Shown one piece after another: positions 2,386-18,106 of a DNA stretch of 27,234 nucleotides. Location: IMG/VR virus record IMGVR_UViG_3300046829_000045, positions 1-27,234 of that record. One strand, 5' to 3'. The notes beneath the pieces are model-generated. The model saw only the letters and a program-made list of their open reading frames with translations, made no database searches and was not told the DNA's origin. A program made the translations under genes and the position numbers. Position 1 is the stretch's first letter; the number at the start of each line of letters is the position of its first letter. Origin of the DNA: a virus.

Positions 2386-4275
2386 GTGGCGAGCCGGGCA
2401 GCGCGCCGCAACCAGGCCAGGACGCCCGCTAAGCGCCCCCCGGCGAACCCTGGCGGCGTCAACCTCACCGGCGACCAGCTCACCGCCGTCCTCGCCGCCT
2501 CCCAGCGCGCCTCCGCCCTCGCGGCACCGCTGCCCCGCCCGCCGCAGTGGGCATCCGATCCGTTCGGCCCCGGCACCCCGCTCCGCCCGTCACCGATCAA
2601 CCGGCCCAACCCGCGCACCGGCCGCGCCGAGCCGCGCCTGTTCGAGCTGCCGATCAGCACGAACCTCAACGTCAACACCGCGCCGTTCGTGCCGTGGAAG
2701 ACCCTCAGTGACGCCGCGGACATGCCCTTGTTTCGCAAGTGCATCGAGCGCCGCAAGTCCGTGTGTGACCTGGACTTCGTCATCTCCGTCGACCCTAAGG
2801 CCGTCGCGAGGGAAGCAGCGCTCAGCGGCCAGCACGAGAAGGACGTCGAGGCCGCGCTGCGGGACAAGTACACCGCCGACATCGCCCGGTGCACCGACTG
2901 GCTGCAGGAGCCGGACCGGAAGAACGGCTACGACTGGGGCGCCTGGACGCGGCAGCTCATGGAAAACCGCCTGGTTTACGACGCCACCGTGGTGTACCCC
3001 AAGTACACGTTCGGCGGCGACGTCTTCGCCTTCGAGTCCATCGACGGGTCGACCATCAAGCCGCTGCTGGACGAGTCAGGCGGCCGCCCGCTGCCCCCCG
3101 CGCCGTTCGCCCAGCAGGTCCTGTACGGCTTCCCCCGCGGCGAGTTCGTCGCCGACACGGTCGACGTCGGCGGCAAGACGATGGTACCCGGCGGGATGAC
3201 CACCGACCAGCTGGCCTACGAGCGCACCATCATCCGCCCCAAGACCCCCTATGGGATGTCCGCCACCGAGATCGCGCTGCTCGACGGCATCCTGTGGATG
3301 CGCCGCATGGGCTGGCTGATGTCCGAGTACTCGCAGGGCGTGACGGGGGCGATGCTGGAGACGTCGGCTGAGGTCGACTGGGACGTGTTCCAGTGGGAGG
3401 ACTGGGTCGTCGCGCTGAACGACAAGCTCCGCGGTGACACCGCTGAGCGGCTGGCGTGGTCGCTGCTGCCGCCGGGGACGAAGGCGGTCATCCCGCCGGA
3501 GGTCGCCGAGCGGTACAAGCCGGAGATGGACTTGTTCCTCATCAAGCTGGTCGCCGGGGACTTCGGCCTGCCCGCCAGCGAGGTGGGGTTCACGGAGGCC
3601 GGGGCACTGGGAGCGTCGTTCCATGAGGGCGAGGAGGACATCCTCAACCGGCAGACGCGCCGCCCGGACGCTGACTGGCTGGGGCGGATCGCGACGCGGC
3701 TGATGGTGCGCCACAACCGGATGCCGCCGGTGCTGGCCGTGCAGGTGCTGGGCCTGGAGTCCGAGGATGAGGCGGCGGCGGACACGATCGCGGACACGCG
3801 GGTCCGCGGCGGCCGGATGACCCTCAACCAGGACAACGCGCGCCGCGGCGAGCCGCCGTATGACTTCGACGAGGCCGACATGCCGATGCTGATCACGAAC
3901 CGCGGCGTCGTGTTCCTCGAGGGAGCGTCGAAGCAGGGGCCGCCCGGCTCGCTGATCGGGCCGCCGCAGGCCCCGCCGCCGGGAGCGCCGCAGCCGGGCC
4001 AGGACGGCCAGCAGGACGGGAACGAGGGCCAGGACGATGAGGACGAGGATCCCGCGCAGAAGGCGCGGTTCTTCAGCGAGGCCGCCGAGCTGGAGGCGCT
4101 GAAGAACTGGCTCGGCAAGGCGCGCAACGCCGGCAAGACCTTCACGTGCCACACGCTCACGGCAGGCGACTGGCATGGCCCGGCGGATCCGCGGATCATC
4201 TTCAAGGCGGATGATGCGGCCCCAAAAGCGCTAAGCGGGACTGGCCCGGCTGGCAGAGGGACCGGGAGCTGGTGA
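2386..4275 (+). CDS. Portal protein
   Basis: A 629-residue protein in the canonical place after the large terminase. It forms the dodecameric vertex ring through which DNA enters and leaves the capsid. The central part is typical of actinophage portals: PYGMSATEIALLDGILWMRR, then EYSQGVTGAMLE, a DWDVFQWEDWV segment, an LPPGTKAVIPPEVAE stretch, and GEEDILNRQTRRPDADWLGR. The C-terminus is Pro/Gln/Asp-rich and probably flexible. The GTG start lies three bases after the preceding stop. The zero-frame C-terminus after residue 614 (ALSGTGPAGRGTGSW) looks artificial. A slippery CCCAAAA at 4221-4227 would shift translation by -1 into the MuF-like frame and give a fusion of about 917 residues (see separate feature). 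Confidence 0.9.
   Translation: MASRAARRNQARTPAKRPPANPGGVNLTGDQLTAVLAASQRASALAAPLPRPPQWASDPFGPGTPLRPSPINRPNPRTGRAEPRLFELPISTNLNVNTAPFVPWKTLSDAADMPLFRKCIERRKSVCDLDFVISVDPKAVAREAALSGQHEKDVEAALRDKYTADIARCTDWLQEPDRKNGYDWGAWTRQLMENRLVYDATVVYPKYTFGGDVFAFESIDGSTIKPLLDESGGRPLPPAPFAQQVLYGFPRGEFVADTVDVGGKTMVPGGMTTDQLAYERTIIRPKTPYGMSATEIALLDGILWMRRMGWLMSEYSQGVTGAMLETSAEVDWDVFQWEDWVVALNDKLRGDTAERLAWSLLPPGTKAVIPPEVAERYKPEMDLFLIKLVAGDFGLPASEVGFTEAGALGASFHEGEEDILNRQTRRPDADWLGRIATRLMVRHNRMPPVLAVQVLGLESEDEAAADTIADTRVRGGRMTLNQDNARRGEPPYDFDEADMPMLITNRGVVFLEGASKQGPPGSLIGPPQAPPPGAPQPGQDGQQDGNEGQDDEDEDPAQKARFFSEAAELEALKNWLGKARNAGKTFTCHTLTAGDWHGPADPRIIFKADDAAPKALSGTGPAGRGTGSW
4221..4251 (+). other. Putative -1 programmed frameshift site joining portal and MuF-like genes
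   Basis: The heptamer CCCAAAA (4221-4227) is read in the portal frame as C CCA AAA, which is the canonical X XXY YYZ phase. A -1 slip continues at 4227 as SAKRDWPGWQRDRELV and runs without a stop into the MuF-like gene. The -1 frame is open only from 4215, so the site sits inside a 60-base window shared by both frames. A six-base spacer is followed by a GC-rich stem: AGC/GGG at 4234-4239 pairs with CCC and GCT at 4245-4251, with one bulged G and a five-base loop. WPGWQRD in the shifted frame looks like real coding sequence. Inference from sequence only. Confidence 0.62.
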
Positions 4276-5138
4276 GCGTGTACGCGCCGCGGGTGCAGGC
4301 GGCCGTAGCCGGGGCGGTCGACGCTCAGAGGCTCGCTGAGGCGTGGCAGGCGCTGCACCCGAAGGACGTCACCAAGGGGACGGCAGCGACGGCCCCGTAC
4401 GAGGTAGGTCGCGGGAGTTCGCTTGAGTCCCCGGCCGGCCGGACCGGATCATCCCGCCGCGCCCGCACGCCGCTGCCTGCTGCCGAGGCTACCAAGGCGC
4501 TCAACCCGGTACTGTCGGCGTTCCTTAACCGCGCCCGCACGGCCATCACCGGCGCGCTCAGGGACGTCCTGGTCAAGCTGTGGACCGAGGCGTGGGTGCT
4601 CGGCAACCGCTCCGCGCTCGCCGCCGTGGACAGCCTGGACCCCGACTGGGGCGCCTGGACGCCTGGCGACTACGCCGCCGCTGACGCGATAGCCGGGCCG
4701 GGGCTGCGGCAGCTGCTGCAGGAGGCCGGGATCCGCATCAAGTCCATCACCGAAAGCCGCCTCGAGGAGCTGTCGGCGGTCCTTGAGGCGACGCTGCGCT
4801 CCGATGAGATCCGCCGGACGCCGGGCACGGAGCCGCTGCCGCCGTTCCTGTCCGTCGGCGACCTCGCGAAGCGGCTCGAGGCGGTGCTGGACAACCCGGA
4901 CCGCGCCGAGCTGGTCGCCCAGGCGGAGATCGCGCGGGCGCAGGCGACCGCGGCCAGGCAGGTGTACCTGGAGACGGGCCGCTCCGAGGTGGAGATCTCG
5001 ACGGCGGAAGACGACAAGGTGTGCCCGGTGTGCGATGCTGCCGCGAAGCTGGGCGCGCACCCGATCGGAGTGGCCCCGATGGTGCCGCTGCACCCGCGGT
5101 GCCGGTGCGCTGAGCTGCCCGTGCTGGAGCCGGCATGA
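4272..5138 (+). CDS. MuF-like minor head protein (SPP1 gp7 type)
   Basis: A minor head morphogenesis protein that usually binds the portal and is packed in low copy number in the capsid. The 288-residue product has a central helical region (KLWTEAWVLGNRSALAAVD, then GLRQLLQEAGIRIKSITE) and the hallmark C-terminal signature CPVC at about 251-254 followed by HPRCRC at about 274-279. Both are typical of the Mu F/SPP1 gp7 domain. GTG 4272 overlaps the portal stop as GTGA, with GGGAG three bases upstream, so independent initiation is possible. Coding-like sequence continues upstream in this frame to 4215, which suggests that much or all of the protein may instead be made as a -1 frameshift fusion to the portal. 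Confidence 0.88.
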   Translation: MSVYAPRVQAAVAGAVDAQRLAEAWQALHPKDVTKGTAATAPYEVGRGSSLESPAGRTGSSRRARTPLPAAEATKALNPVLSAFLNRARTAITGALRDVLVKLWTEAWVLGNRSALAAVDSLDPDWGAWTPGDYAAADAIAGPGLRQLLQEAGIRIKSITESRLEELSAVLEATLRSDEIRRTPGTEPLPPFLSVGDLAKRLEAVLDNPDRAELVAQAEIARAQATAARQVYLETGRSEVEISTAEDDKVCPVCDAAAKLGAHPIGVAPMVPLHPRCRCAELPVLEPA

Positions 5139-11823: not shown

Positions 11824-13176
11824 TTGACCACGTTCACGCTGTTCGGGCAGGCTGCCCCGTCCGGGAGCGCCCCGGTCGACGCGGGCAACTACACGATGGG
11901 CGTCCAGTGGTCGTCCTCGGTGCCCGGCACCGTGACGGCGGTCTGGTGGTACTCGCCCGCAGGCGCCCCGGAGCTGCCGACGCAGGTCGCGCTGTACCAG
12001 GTGTCCGGCGGCGGCACGGGCACCCTCGTGCACTCGGAGGCGGCCAGCTGGTCAGGCGCGGCAGGCTCCGGGTGGGTGCGGTCCCCGTTCGCCAGCCCCC
12101 CGGCTATCTCGGCGAGCACCGCCTACAAGGCGGCCATCCTGCGGCCCGGCACGGCGAACGTGGCCTGGTACCAGCACACGGCTGACTACTGGGACACCGG
12201 CGCCGGGTCTGGCGGAGTCGTCAGCGGGCCGCTGACCGCGCCGAACAATGCCGGGGGAGACGCAGGGCAGGACACGTTCACCGCCGGCGCCACGCTCGCC
12301 TACCCGGCGACGTCGTTCCAGGCGAGCAACTACTGGGTTGACGTTGAGCTGACGACCGGCACGGCGCGCACGCGCACCGCGTCGCTGACGGTGACGCCGT
12401 CGTTCACCGCGTCGCGGGCGGCGGGCCGGTTCCGGACCGCGTCCCTGACGGTTGCCCCGTCGTTCTCGGCGGCGCGCACGCGGGCAGCGCACCGTACCGC
12501 CTCACTGGCAGTCACCCCGGCCTTCGCCGTGACCCGCGCCCAGGGCCACGCGCGGACCGCGTCGCTGACGGTGCCGTTCGCGTTCCGCGCCGTGCCGTCC
12601 GGCGGCCACGCGAAGCTCGAGCGGCAGCTGGTGCGCCTCGCCGTCGCCGCCTACTTCGGCGGCGCGAAGGTGACGGCCGACGCGGGCACCTGCTTCCAGG
12701 GCGGCCCGCTCACGGCGTTCGGGCTGGGAACCGCCTACCCGTACACGGTCAGGAACGTCCCCGACGAGTACTACACCGCAGGGATGCCCGCCGGGCAGAA
12801 CTGGGGCGCCGTGATGTACACGACCCGCGTGGAGCGGAACACGAAGCTCGACAGCTACGGCGGCGCCGTCAGTGGCTGGTGGGCGCGGCGGTACACGATC
12901 GAGTGCGAGATCGCGCTCATCTGCGAGCTGCCCCACATCGAGGTCGCCGGGGCGGCCCTCGACGACCTCATCGACAAGGTCCACGCGCTGATCTACGCCG
13001 ACCGGACGCTCGGTACCAACGGCGGCGCCTCCGGCCTGCAGATCCTGCAGGCGGGCGCGGGCCGCGCCGGCATCCGCGACGTGACGGGCAAGTTCGCGGC
13101 GCTCGACGAGGTCAAGGGGCGGTACGCGGCCGAGGCGACCGTGACGTTCGAGGCACTGACCATGGTGACGGCATAG
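11824..13176 (+). CDS. Fusion of DUF4082-like domain, repeats and tail-terminator-like domain
   Basis: A 450-residue modular protein. Residues about 3-180 resemble DUF4082 (FTLFGQAAPSGSAPVDAG, GTVTAVWWYSP, then FQASNYWVDVELTTG), a beta-sandwich seen in secreted carbohydrate-associated proteins. Residues 184-263 are four 20-residue repeats each opening RTASLTV or RTASLAV. Residues about 264-450 look like a tail terminator (LERQLVRLAVAAYFGG, RYTIECEIALICELPH, DDLIDKVHALIYADRTLG), which caps the tail tube at the head end. The start is TTG 11824, unusual but needed because the DUF4082-like part begins at once; AGGGG lies upstream. Position before the major tail protein fits the terminator role; a surface domain on it is unusual. 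Confidence 0.66.
   Translation: MTTFTLFGQAAPSGSAPVDAGNYTMGVQWSSSVPGTVTAVWWYSPAGAPELPTQVALYQVSGGGTGTLVHSEAASWSGAAGSGWVRSPFASPPAISASTAYKAAILRPGTANVAWYQHTADYWDTGAGSGGVVSGPLTAPNNAGGDAGQDTFTAGATLAYPATSFQASNYWVDVELTTGTARTRTASLTVTPSFTASRAAGRFRTASLTVAPSFSAARTRAAHRTASLAVTPAFAVTRAQGHARTASLTVPFAFRAVPSGGHAKLERQLVRLAVAAYFGGAKVTADAGTCFQGGPLTAFGLGTAYPYTVRNVPDEYYTAGMPAGQNWGAVMYTTRVERNTKLDSYGGAVSGWWARRYTIECEIALICELPHIEVAGAALDDLIDKVHALIYADRTLGTNGGASGLQILQAGAGRAGIRDVTGKFAALDEVKGRYAAEATVTFEALTMVTA
12373..12612 (+). repeat. Four tandem 60-bp coding repeats (RTASLTV repeats)
   Basis: Four consecutive 20-codon units begin at 12373, 12433, 12493 and 12553. Each opens with codons for RTASL(T/A)V and then a variable beta-strand-like stretch ending in a basic or aromatic residue. 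They form the linker between the DUF4082-like and terminator-like parts of the host gene. The spacing is exact, although the DNA is diverged. Confidence 0.85.
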
Positions 13177-14681: not shown

Positions 14682-15122
14682 GTGCGCACTGAGCTGGAGT
14701 CCGGGGGGTGGGTCGAGCACCTTCCGATCCAGGACGTCAAGGGAAAGCACATCCGCGCCTACCGGCGCGCGATAAGCCTCCACGTTCCCGGCAACGCAGT
14801 GGACGACGACGGCGACGTCGACCGGCGTGTCCTCGTCACCAGCCTGGACCTCGGCGAGCGGCGCGAGGCCAGGGGCGACGCCGTCGCAGCGATCATCCTC
14901 ACCGCATGGTCGTTCCCTGAGCCGGTACCGGACCTGGAGGGCTACAGCGTCGTCAACGGCGAGTCGCTCGGCGAGCTGCCGGCCGACGACCTGATCGAGA
15001 TCGAGCGGATCCTCGAGCCGTTCGCCGCCAAGTTCGACGACAAGCCAAACCCAAAAGAGGCGACTACCTCCATCTCAAATGGGTCGTCCAGGGCAAGAGC
15101 AGGAAGCTCCCGCCGGGGCTGA
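14682..15122 (+). CDS. Tail assembly chaperone, short (G-like) form
   Basis: A 146-residue zero-frame product, acting as a chaperone that loads tube subunits on the tape measure. The body is an acidic, helical protein (RRVLVTSLDLGERREARGDA, DLIEIERILEPFAAKFDD). GTG 14682 follows GAGGAG-type sequence after the major tail gene. The C-terminus after the slippery site (EATTSISNGSSRARAGSSRR) looks like non-selected sequence, as usual for such proteins. Between tube protein and tape measure, this is the standard location for the G/GT pair. Confidence 0.84.
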   Translation: MRTELESGGWVEHLPIQDVKGKHIRAYRRAISLHVPGNAVDDDGDVDRRVLVTSLDLGERREARGDAVAAIILTAWSFPEPVPDLEGYSVVNGESLGELPADDLIEIERILEPFAAKFDDKPNPKEATTSISNGSSRARAGSSRRG

Positions 15123-15277
15123 GCTGGGAGGACTACGAGGACATCCTGCACATCATCCGCTTCCGGCTACCGCCTGAGGCGGGCGGCAGGGACGACCTGC
15201 CGGCTGGCGTCTGGACCTGGCTGATGCCGGTGCAGATGGCGGTCGACAAGGCGCAGAGGGAGGCGATGAAGGGATGA
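14682..15277 (+). CDS. Tail assembly chaperone, -1 frameshift (GT-like) product
   Basis: Joined product 14682-15056 plus 15056-15277, about 198 residues. After slipping at CCCAAAA (15050-15056, read as C CCA AAA) the ribosome continues RGDYLHLKWVVQGKSRK, LSWEDYEDILHIIRFRLP and WTWLMPVQMAVDKAQREA, clearly coding-like, to a TGA at 15275-15277. This stop overlaps the next gene's ATG as ATGA. The T-like part has no start codon of its own, so frameshifting is the only visible way to make it, as known for lambda-type phages. Confidence 0.85.
15050..15056 (+). other. -1 slippery heptamer in tail chaperone gene
   Basis: CCCAAAA in exact X XXY YYZ phase relative to the 14682 frame. A small GAGG/CCTC hairpin can be drawn directly after it, and a weak GGCGAC/GTCGTC pairing further on; I place little weight on either. 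The shifted frame is open for 73 codons. Confidence 0.85.
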
Positions 15278-15777
15278 GACCGGAGGAGCTGCCCGGCTAC
15301 CTGGCCGGCCTGGGCCGTGCCGTCCGCGACCGCGCTGCACTGGACGCCGCCGACGCCATGGCGCAGTCCTACCAGCGCGACGTCGTGCGGTCGATGCGCG
15401 GCCCGTCGCCGTCACCCGCGGGCACGCCGCCAGCGCGCCGCACGGGCACCCTGGCCCGGTCAGTCCGCCCTGAGCCCGCGAAGGCCGCCGGGGCAGGGCG
15501 GGCCACCTCGAGCGTCGCCCCGCACACCGTCTACGCCCGCATCCAGCAGCTCGGCGGCCACGTCTACCCGGTGCGCGCCAAGGCGCTGCGGTGGAAGGCC
15601 AGGACGTTCGGGCCGCTGCGGCAGGGCGAGAAGCGCAGCAACTGGGTGTACGCGACGCATGTCTACCTGCCGCCGCGGCCCTACATGGTGATGAACGGCG
15701 CCCGGCGGCAGGAGTGCCGCAAGCAGGCCATCGCCGCGGTCTCCCGCGTCGTCCGGGAGGCGCTCGCCGGTGGATGA
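15274..15777 (+). CDS. HK97 gp10-like / tail-completion-type protein
   Basis: A 167-residue basic protein. The middle and end, SVAPHTVYARIQQLGGHVY, KALRWKARTF and THVYLPPRPYMVMN, match the pattern of the HK97 gp10-like family (strand, YA..QEFG, PRPFL), which act at the head-tail joint or tail tip. The start overlaps the chaperone stop as ATGA. In HK97- and lambda-type phages this family is encoded before the tail terminator and tube protein, so its place between chaperone and tape measure is noteworthy. The family match is from motif reading; the exact role is uncertain. Confidence 0.7.
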   Translation: MRPEELPGYLAGLGRAVRDRAALDAADAMAQSYQRDVVRSMRGPSPSPAGTPPARRTGTLARSVRPEPAKAAGAGRATSSVAPHTVYARIQQLGGHVYPVRAKALRWKARTFGPLRQGEKRSNWVYATHVYLPPRPYMVMNGARRQECRKQAIAAVSRVVREALAGG

Positions 15778-18106
15778 CATGGAGGAGGTCACCCAGCGGT
15801 TCGCGGCGGACGTCGAGTCGTACGTGGCGGAGGTCGGCCGGGCGGCCACTGAGGCGCGTGACCTGGCCGGGGCGACGGAGGAGGTCAAGTTCGCCGCTGA
15901 CGGCATGCGCGACAAGGTCACCGAGGCGGCCGCGGCGCTGAAGATCACCCGCGACGAGATGGGCAAGCTCCGCAACGCCTCCGGTGAGGTGATCACGGCA
16001 TCGGAGGCGCAGGCGCTGGCCCTGAAGCACATCCGCGACCAGGCGCTCGAGGCCGCCTTCGCGATGCGGGAGCTGGACAAGTACGAGAAGCCGTCCATGT
16101 TCTCCCGGCTCGGCGGCCTGCTCGGCGGCGGCGGTAGTGGCGGCGCCGGCGGCGGCCTCAGCGCGGGGGACCTCGCCCCGGGCCTGGGCAGCCCCACGGC
16201 GATAATCAGCATGATCGCCGCCGTCGAGGCCGCCATCATGATCATCGGCCCTGAAGTCGGGGCGCTCGCGACCGGGCTGACGGCGGCCGGGCTGGGCGTC
16301 GGGTCGTTCGCCGCGCTGGCAGTCCCCGCGCTCAAGAGCGTAACGGGCGAGTACCAGGCCCTGAACGCCGTCAACCAGAAATACCAGCAGGCAGTCGCGC
16401 TCGAGAAGATGGACCCGACGAAGGGGCACGCCGCCGCGGTCAAGGCGGCACTGGACCAGGTGAACCTCGTCGGGCAGGCATACCAGAAGCTGCCGAACGA
16501 CGAGCAGGGCGCGGTCGACGGCCTCTACAAGCTCACCCACGCCTTCCAGGCGCAGGCCAAGGCGTTCCAGCCCACCGCGTTCAAGGTCTTCAACGAGGCC
16601 CTGGGCGTCGCGAACCAGCTGCTGCCGTACCTGGGCCAGTTCGCGGCGGCGGTCGCGCCCGCGATCGAGCACCTGATCGGGGGGCTGGGCCGGTTCGTCG
16701 GCGGCGGCCAGTTCAGGTACTTCATGGGCTTCCTCCAGTCGCTGGCGGGGCCGGTGCTGGAGGCGGTCGGCTCCGGCATGGCCGGGCTGGGCCTGCGGCT
16801 CATGACGCTGATGGAGCTGTTCAGCAAGAAGGACGTGATAAACAGCGTCAACATCGCGTTCCGCGTCCTCGGCTTCCTCCTGCAATTGACTCAGGGCCTG
16901 ATCATGGAGGGAATGGACGCCTGGGACATCCTGACCCAGACGGTCCTTCCCGATGTGGCGCACTGGTTCGACGTGGCCCGCCACGCGGTCGCCAGCTTCG
17001 CCCACGGGGTCGCGCACGACTTCGACGACGTGCGCCACGACGTCGCCGAGTTCGGCCACGACGTGGCGCACTACTTCGACGACGCCAGGCACGATGTCGC
17101 GGAGTTCGGCCACGGGGTCGCGGTCGCGTTCGACGACGTCCGCCACGCGGTCGCCGTGGCCGTGACCGACACCGTCGGCTGGGTCCGCGACCACTGGAAG
17201 ATCATCCTGGCGTGGCTGGTCGCGCCCATCGGCATGGCGGTCTTCGAGATCAAGACGCATACGCACCAGATCGCGCAGGCGTTCGACGAGCTGCGCCACG
17301 ACGTCGCCGCGATCCTCGCCGGGGCACGCCATGACGTGGCCGCGTTCGCCGACTGGGCGCCCCACGCCATCAGGGTCGCCTGGGACACCGTCCGGCACGA
17401 CACGGCCGCCGCGATGGACTGGGTCCGCCACGAGATCGCGCACGCGTTCGACTCGGTGCGCCACGATATCGCGGCGGCCACGGGCGACGTGCGGCACGAG
17501 GTGGCCGCCGCCTGGGACTGGCTGCGGCACGCCACCGCCACGGCAGCCGACGCGGTCGCCCATTTCTTCGAGCAGCTCCCGGGGCGGATCCTGTCCTACC
17601 TGGCGTCACTGCCGGCGAAGATGGCCGACGCCGGCAAGAACGTCATCCTCGGCCTGATCCGCGGCATAGAGTCCGCCGCCAGCCAGATCCCGTCCATCAT
17701 GCGCGGCCTCGCCTCCGACGTCGCCAGCTACTTCACCAACCCGCTGAAGCTGTTCTCCCCGAGCCGGGTGTTCTTCGACCACGGCGTGAACATCGTGCTC
17801 GGCGCGATCAACGGCGTGCGGTCGATGGCGCCGCAGCTGCAGCAGGTCATGCGCCAGCTCGGCTCCGGAGTGGCCACGGGCGGCATCCCCGGCGCCGGCG
17901 CGGGCGGCGGGTACGGCGCCGCCGGCGGCGGCCGCGTGAACGTCACGGTGCCGCTGACCGCGGTGTTCGGGGCCGCCACCGGCTTCCTCAATGACCCGCA
18001 CTTCCTGCAGTACATCCAGACCGTCATCCAGGAAGCCGTCCTCCGGTACAACGTCAACAACCCCGGCAACGGGCTGGCGATCTCGGCCGGCGGCAGGCCG
18101 CTGTGA
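15770..18106 (+). CDS. Tape measure protein with His-rich 18-residue repeats
   Basis: A 778-residue, mainly helical protein that sets tail length. The N-terminus is coiled-coil-like (EEVTQRFAADVESYVAEVGR). Hydrophobic stretches occur at about 140-185 (AIISMIAAVEAAIMIIGPEV) and 477-494 (WKIILAWLVAPIGMAVFEI). Residues 400-600 carry many RHDVA-type units, including tandem 18-residue repeats FDDVRHDVAEFGHDVAHY. The C-terminus has the LFSPSRVFFDHG element typical of tape measures, then a Gly-rich linker and a VNVTVPLTAVFG strand. GTG 15770 overlaps the upstream stop; ATG 15779 is an alternative. At about 1.5 angstrom per residue the tail would be near 115 nm, a family-based estimate. Confidence 0.9.
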   Translation: MDDMEEVTQRFAADVESYVAEVGRAATEARDLAGATEEVKFAADGMRDKVTEAAAALKITRDEMGKLRNASGEVITASEAQALALKHIRDQALEAAFAMRELDKYEKPSMFSRLGGLLGGGGSGGAGGGLSAGDLAPGLGSPTAIISMIAAVEAAIMIIGPEVGALATGLTAAGLGVGSFAALAVPALKSVTGEYQALNAVNQKYQQAVALEKMDPTKGHAAAVKAALDQVNLVGQAYQKLPNDEQGAVDGLYKLTHAFQAQAKAFQPTAFKVFNEALGVANQLLPYLGQFAAAVAPAIEHLIGGLGRFVGGGQFRYFMGFLQSLAGPVLEAVGSGMAGLGLRLMTLMELFSKKDVINSVNIAFRVLGFLLQLTQGLIMEGMDAWDILTQTVLPDVAHWFDVARHAVASFAHGVAHDFDDVRHDVAEFGHDVAHYFDDARHDVAEFGHGVAVAFDDVRHAVAVAVTDTVGWVRDHWKIILAWLVAPIGMAVFEIKTHTHQIAQAFDELRHDVAAILAGARHDVAAFADWAPHAIRVAWDTVRHDTAAAMDWVRHEIAHAFDSVRHDIAAATGDVRHEVAAAWDWLRHATATAADAVAHFFEQLPGRILSYLASLPAKMADAGKNVILGLIRGIESAASQIPSIMRGLASDVASYFTNPLKLFSPSRVFFDHGVNIVLGAINGVRSMAPQLQQVMRQLGSGVATGGIPGAGAGGGYGAAGGGRVNVTVPLTAVFGAATGFLNDPHFLQYIQTVIQEAVLRYNVNNPGNGLAISAGGRPL
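16967..17160 (+). repeat. Tandem 54-bp repeats in tape measure gene
   Basis: Units start at 16967, 17021 and 17075, with a partial fourth from 17129. Each encodes an 18-residue FD(D/V)xRHxVAxFxHxVA pattern. The second and third units are nearly identical in protein. Further irregular RHDVA/RHEIA units continue to about 17540. The helical period suggests a long regular alpha-helix with a His/Arg face. Confidence 0.85.

Follow-up and report, generated by a model that had tools for sequence, protein, structure and literature searches.

A conserved slippery heptamer at the portal-MuF junction of a soil phage genome predicts portal proteins with and without a MuF domain

Ribosomal -1 slippage at a C CCA AAA heptamer close to the end of the portal gene very probably yields a portal-MuF fusion beside the plain portal protein, as judged from the sequence and from its conservation among relatives. 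The DNA analyzed here, called the window, is the whole stretch of 27,234 nucleotides of IMG/VR record IMGVR_UViG_3300046829_000045 and has a GC content of 71%. Because of this GC content, and because prophage relatives occur in Streptomyces, Sphaerisporangium and Frankia, the hosts are presumably actinobacteria. The GTDB genomes hold six loci with prophage relatives, these three genera being among the hosts, and prophage relatives make up 1 of 148 class members. The features on which the analysis is built are the following, all on the plus strand.

2386 to 4275, plus strand: portal gene, frame 0, 629 codons, 68.6 kDa (calculated); PHROG 2662 portal, E = 6e-29; aligns end to end with relatives
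4204 to 4216, plus strand: AAGGCGGATGATG, complementary to the 3' end of 16S rRNA and a peak of hybridisation energy; candidate upstream stimulator, putative function
4215 to 5138, plus strand: -1-frame ORF comprising the linker DWPGWQRD and the MuF domain (Pfam Phage_Mu_F, E = 7e-4; PHROG head morphogenesis, E = 2e-12; selection on the -1 frame)
4221 to 4227, plus strand: slippery heptamer C CCA AAA, in phase with the portal gene; next base G
4228 to 4275, plus strand: tail of the plain portal, i.e., its last 16 codons, ALSGTGPAGRGTGSW
4236 to 4248, plus strand: short putative hairpin formed by 4236-4239 and 4245-4248, 8 nt downstream of the heptamer; weak and not above controls
4272 to 4275, plus strand: GTGA, in which the portal stop TGA (4273-4275) overlaps a possible MuF restart GTG (4272); the start is not kept across the -1 clade
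14682 to 15122, plus strand: gpG-like tail assembly chaperone, frame 0, upstream of the tape measure gene (15770-18106)
15050 to 15277, plus strand: second C CCA AAA (15050-15056) with a gpGT-like -1 extension

An earlier note on this DNA had proposed that the portal and MuF-like genes are joined by a -1 frameshift signal, and the proposal is supported: it withstood those of its own refuting conditions that sequence can address. Reading of the ORFs confirmed the phase of the heptamer, as CCA and AAA are portal codons (X XXY YYZ). A slip would re-pair the ribosome on CCC AAA and continue with AGC GCT AAG CGG GAC TGG (SAKRDW). The -1 frame is indeed open from 4215, its upstream limit being the TGA at 4212-4214, and reads PKSAKRDWPGWQRDRELV into the MuF ORF. 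The first ATG, GTG or TTG of this ORF is the GTG at 4272, with none between the 4212-4214 stop and that position. Ribosomes reaching C CCA AAA would thus be split between two frames: normal decoding would end at 4275 and release the plain portal, and slipped ribosomes would read on in the -1 frame and join portal and MuF via the interdomain linker, giving a fusion of 917 aa and 99.5 kDa (calculated). Slippage presumably takes place at a useful rate, and an upstream stretch resembling an anti-Shine-Dalgarno (anti-SD) partner may aid it. In profile searches the portal of the window has no Pfam match; PF04860 is matched by fused relatives, with L105 and the phage Sonali above cut-off. The MuF domain (PF04233) of the window scores 20.8 bits, under the curated cut-off of 29.6, which is exceeded in the relatives L105 (42.2), Sonali (38.5) and L090 (35.9).

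The relatives were gathered by IMG/VR scans with window proteins and with alignments, and near-identical copies were removed before counting. All 54 de-duplicated loci with MuF in the -1 frame carry an in-phase heptamer before the junction, C CCA AAA in 49 and G GGA AAA in 5, which answers the question of the earlier note whether homologues keep it. The contigs are related to each other, so that such counts must not be read as independent trials. In the main clade CCA accounts for 4.5% of proline and AAA for 11% of lysine codons, and other in-phase X XXA/T heptamers number 9 in 29,691 codon pairs; the heptamer and its phase are therefore kept beyond what codon usage leads one to expect. The base 3' of the heptamer is G in 47/47. 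Swaps between CCC and GGG required at least 5 changes on the tree, each altering the amino acid while retaining slipperiness. The -1 relation with its heptamer was traced to about 43% portal identity, plus one locus at 31%, with the portal-frame stop kept. That distant locus, L051 (portal identity about 31%), lies on a contig binned, doubtfully, as a Micrarchaeota MAG; it has a -1-frame MuF and C CCA AAA 16 nt before the portal stop, and is possibly an independent case.

Relatives with one fused portal-MuF gene, which the earlier note had thought might exist, do exist, and 50 of them were examined for the heptamer, which they had been expected to lack. An in-frame C CCA AAA or G GGA AAA stands at the same portal/MuF boundary in 47 of the 50. 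L047 and L083 both have the heptamer. The residue before the heptamer is of twelve kinds in these relatives, while the heptamer itself is unchanged. In the 35 fused genes measured, a -1 slip would meet a stop after 3-57 codons (median 9), which is nearer than for most other codons within these genes (median percentile 0.09; KS p 1e-9, the loci being related). Two cultured Arthrobacter phages belong here, Sonali (L113, MK411746 gene 3; heptamer at codon 737 of 995) and Mufasa8 (L130, MN586027 gene 3; codon 738 of 1000). Both are annotated as portal or portal-MuF fusion, and in both C CCA AAA G occurs once in frame, just ahead of MuF, the -1 stop following 11 codons later. Their predicted slip products have 748 and 749 aa (about 82 kDa, calculated) and end in NPKSAYPSVLEG or FPKSTYPSLVEG, as compared with about 109 kDa for the full fusion. 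In Sonali the portal and MuF parts are separated by a NUDIX domain. As the fused relatives keep the slippery site wired the opposite way, both portal forms seem always to be made, in either wiring.

At least 4 changes have to be assumed on the portal tree to account for the -1 wiring; the largest -1 clade has 48-49 rows with support of 98-99, and L178, L180/L181 and L051 are placed elsewhere. These are FastTree and quick trees, which give the order of magnitude of wiring changes and not exact events. A separate observation concerns L047 and L096 (Sphaerisporangium prophage), where a fused gene with an in-frame heptamer has, in addition, a frame break of one base within the MuF domain. In L047 this break lies around 12000-12136, near DW/AWTPGD; it is seen in two records and represents either decay or another recoding site.

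The -1 reading of the overlap, PKSAKRDWPGWQRD..., is conserved among relatives. In clade A, changes in the overlap fell on -1 codon positions 1, 2 and 3 in the numbers 43, 41 and 70 (p=0.006, parsimony on the portal tree); clade B shows the same order by parsimony, 63, 54 and 79, where it is not significant. The excess falls on the second portal-frame position, and the -1 frame is therefore under selection in the overlap. Region 4228-4271, which belongs to the stretch (4215-4271) for which the earlier note had considered divergence in the case of independent MuF starts, thus proved in the relatives to be conserved as -1-frame protein. This bears on the alternative that MuF is a separate gene with a translationally coupled start at GTG 4272, the heptamer being incidental. 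Such a start is suggested by the stop-start overlap GTGA in the window, by a GTG at the same place in many clade A members, where it overlaps the portal stop, and by other lineages of the family whose MuF is able to restart alone. However, selection on the -1 frame acts before GTG 4272, five members (L051, L070, L092, L116 and L122) show no start codon within the initial ~50 codons of the -1 frame, and five others (L006, L008, L054, L065 and L080) lack a start at the position of GTG 4272. With start codons missing in several members, MuF cannot in general be made by re-initiation, and a coupled start would also leave the heptamer of the fused genes unexplained. We therefore regard coupling without frameshifting as improbable, though free MuF could also be made from the GTG at the portal stop in much of clade A, next to the frameshifted fusion.

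Other arrangements of portal and MuF occur in the family. Four loci (L079, L085, L093 and L175) have MuF in the +1 frame, and their portal reads CCCAAAAG or GGGAAAAG as CCC AAA AGT; here MuF would come either from a restart at an upstream GTG or from a +1 slip. Eight further loci (L082, L091, L106, L186, L189, L193, L195 and L196) have split genes with a +1-frame MuF and a possible ATG/GTG restart, often within a GGTGATG/GGTGGTG-like stretch of the kind that precedes the heptamer elsewhere. In a distant group (e.g., L183, L188, L194 and L206), MuF starts directly after the portal stop. With this variety of gene arrangements, the separation of portal and MuF is achieved in several ways. At the portal/MuF boundary of the related portals of THSA-485A, MMB025 and Polewnik (Firmicutes and Brevundimonas phages) there is no C CCA AAA or G GGA AAA; THSA-485A has other in-phase heptamers, as expected of AT-rich DNA. 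Cluster B1 mycobacteriophages were set aside, their MuF being fused to a protease and not to a portal.

The four +1 loci raise the possibility that CCCAAAAG is kept as a binding site on DNA or RNA, or as some other nucleotide signal, and not for decoding, as the string including the next G is retained where the portal phase differs (L079, L085, L093; GGGAAAAG in L175). Even in these exceptions, however, the heptamer stands in slippery phase of the MuF frame. Substitution by GGGAAAA is unexpected for a binding site, both wirings preserve the phase, and what follows in the -1 frame is either a conserved protein or a close stop. A nucleotide signal is consequently even harder to believe in than a coupled start, and ribosomal slippage at the heptamer remains the reading that we prefer.

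Regarding what might stimulate this slippage, C_CC.A_AA.A is among the motifs that shift more than 0.10% without stimulators in E. coli, and C_CC.A_AA.G reaches 54% frameshift with the IS3 pseudoknot (PMC4066793). The earlier note had pointed to a GC-rich stem at 4234-4251. This part of it was not borne out as a conserved element: only a core of four base pairs (4236-4239 with 4245-4248) is common to most relatives, and the stem, tested in three ways, showed no excess over shuffled or slid controls. Local folds reach no more than moderate stability (median percentile 0.23). The strongest complementarity with the 16S 3' end was seen in windows of 10 nt whose last base lies 3-9 nt ahead of the heptamer, with z of about -8 in the -1 loci and about -15 in the fused loci. 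Mean energies compared with synonymous shuffles were -8.1 versus -6.4 and -10.8 versus -7.7 kcal/mol; the signal is strong by position and only partly above the synonymous shuffles, since a part of it comes from Gly/Asp-rich coding. Judged by sequence, the anti-SD-like stretch appears the better candidate stimulator than the downstream stem.

Transcriptional slippage could likewise generate the second frame, a precedent being dnaX of Thermus thermophilus (PMC5009743). The runs in our loci, however, are three to four C or G plus four A, compared with about nine A or T in the bacterial cases described (PMC5009743). A slipping polymerase would also need neither the strict reading phase nor the upstream anti-SD-like stretch, and we attach very little weight to this explanation. 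That the two frames arose by erroneous sequencing or by a recent indel, the gene being truly fused, as the short double homopolymer CCCCAAAA and the existence of fused relatives might suggest, is refuted by the relatives, where frame relation, heptamer and portal-frame stop persist across the de-duplicated loci, and its probability is next to nil.

The window contains a positive control of its own for decoding at this heptamer, namely the frameshift in the tail assembly chaperone. The heptamer at 15050-15056 is in slippery phase of ORF 14682-15122 and opens a 75-codon -1 extension, the layout typical of tail assembly chaperone genes. With its next base it reads C CCA AAA G, as in the portal gene; two putative frameshift genes of one genome share one heptamer. 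The same heptamer is kept in L140, L141, L142, L144 and L146. CCCAAAA occurs 2 times in the 27-kb window, where shuffled sequence would lead one to expect 0.45 (at least 2 copies in 7 of 100 shuffles), and each copy stands in slippery phase within a gene that has a -1 extension. Relatives of P0003 gave no match in a pattern search of viral contigs and were reached via contigs of known relatives.

How the chain is built at the switch point can be considered in the AlphaFold model of the fused relative L090, which is to be taken as a rough guide in view of its mean pLDDT of 65.6. Its slip site, P634-K635, falls in a low-confidence stretch (residues 627-638) that separates the final strand of the portal from the first helix of MuF. 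It is thus probable that the switch lies in a linker, which would tolerate a shortened or extended chain.

Both wirings may meet one need, namely a portal in which some subunits bear MuF and others do not. By analogy with SPP1 gp7 and other MuF proteins, such a mix would place a limited number of MuF domains inside the head, and the SPP1-type precedent makes a controlled number of covalent MuF domains plausible. A low slip rate would give few fusions in the -1 wiring and nearly all fusions in the fused wiring. Since the wiring has been reversed repeatedly, we infer a rate near one half, or loose selection on the ratio; the simplest guess is that slippage, like that of dnaX, happens roughly half of the time. 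The earlier suggestion that only a few portal subunits carry MuF is thus not established, as repeated reversal fits a rate of about one half better than a low one. With somewhat more doubt than belief, we propose an ancient, reversible portal-MuF switch, in which portal subunits with and without MuF would always be mixed in either wiring, the symmetry of the twelve-subunit ring would be broken in a controlled way, and the switch would act also in cultured phages annotated as fusion-only.

In tailed phages, most known cases of programmed frameshifting concern tail chaperones, with a few tail or capsid proteins besides. Full-text literature searches found portal-MuF fusions and frameshifts in tail and capsid genes and returned no report of a portal-gene frameshift; subscription journals lay outside their scope, so that priority is unproven. 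The portion of the main recoding review covered by the searches makes no mention of portals. If true, a portal frameshift conserved through repeated reversals of wiring would account for the way in which some phages fix how many MuF domains a portal ring carries, and genes annotated as 'portal and MuF-like fusion', those of Sonali and Mufasa8 among them, would have a further product that their annotation misses. Isolated and sequenced phages are available, which makes the portal switch directly testable.

Among the closest known systems is that of dnaX tau/gamma, in which a slippery heptamer gives long and short forms from one gene, as is predicted here; the SD-like stretch upstream of the dnaX heptamer has a candidate counterpart at 4204-4216. 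As in dnaX, a -1 slip at the same site in the fused relatives is predicted to give a short product by early stop. Both wirings are found there as well, the short form being made by the slip in E. coli and the relation being apparently reversed in some bacteria (PMC5009743). However, dnaX encodes a DNA polymerase subunit and uses A AAA AAG with a firm stem-loop, whereas the gene here, with C CCA AAA or G GGA AAA, encodes a phage portal, and the stem is unsupported. In lambda gpG/gpGT and its relatives, a -1 slip near the end of a late gene likewise adds a C-terminal domain. The lambda chaperones are absent from the virion and are made at a ratio of about 30:1 (PMC5009743), while the portal is built into the virion and would receive MuF as its extra domain. 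SPP1 gp17.1* and Listeria phage PSA also place a C-terminal extension on a fraction of the subunits of a virion protein (PMC6316719), although other proteins, +1 shifts and other sites are involved. The SPP1 portal gp6 and the MuF-type minor capsid protein gp7 show MuF bound to the portal, in 1-2 copies per capsid (PMC5576092); unlike the portal-MuF fusion, they come from separate genes and bind non-covalently. Finally, the portal-MuF fusions of actinophages (Arthrobacter Sonali; Microbacterium EA3, EA5, EA8 and EB) have the same two domains in one chain. They are annotated as a single product, whereas in the window normal decoding gives the portal alone and the fusion needs a slip. Among these actinophage fusions, those of Sonali and Mufasa8 are homologous to the window genes and carry the heptamer.
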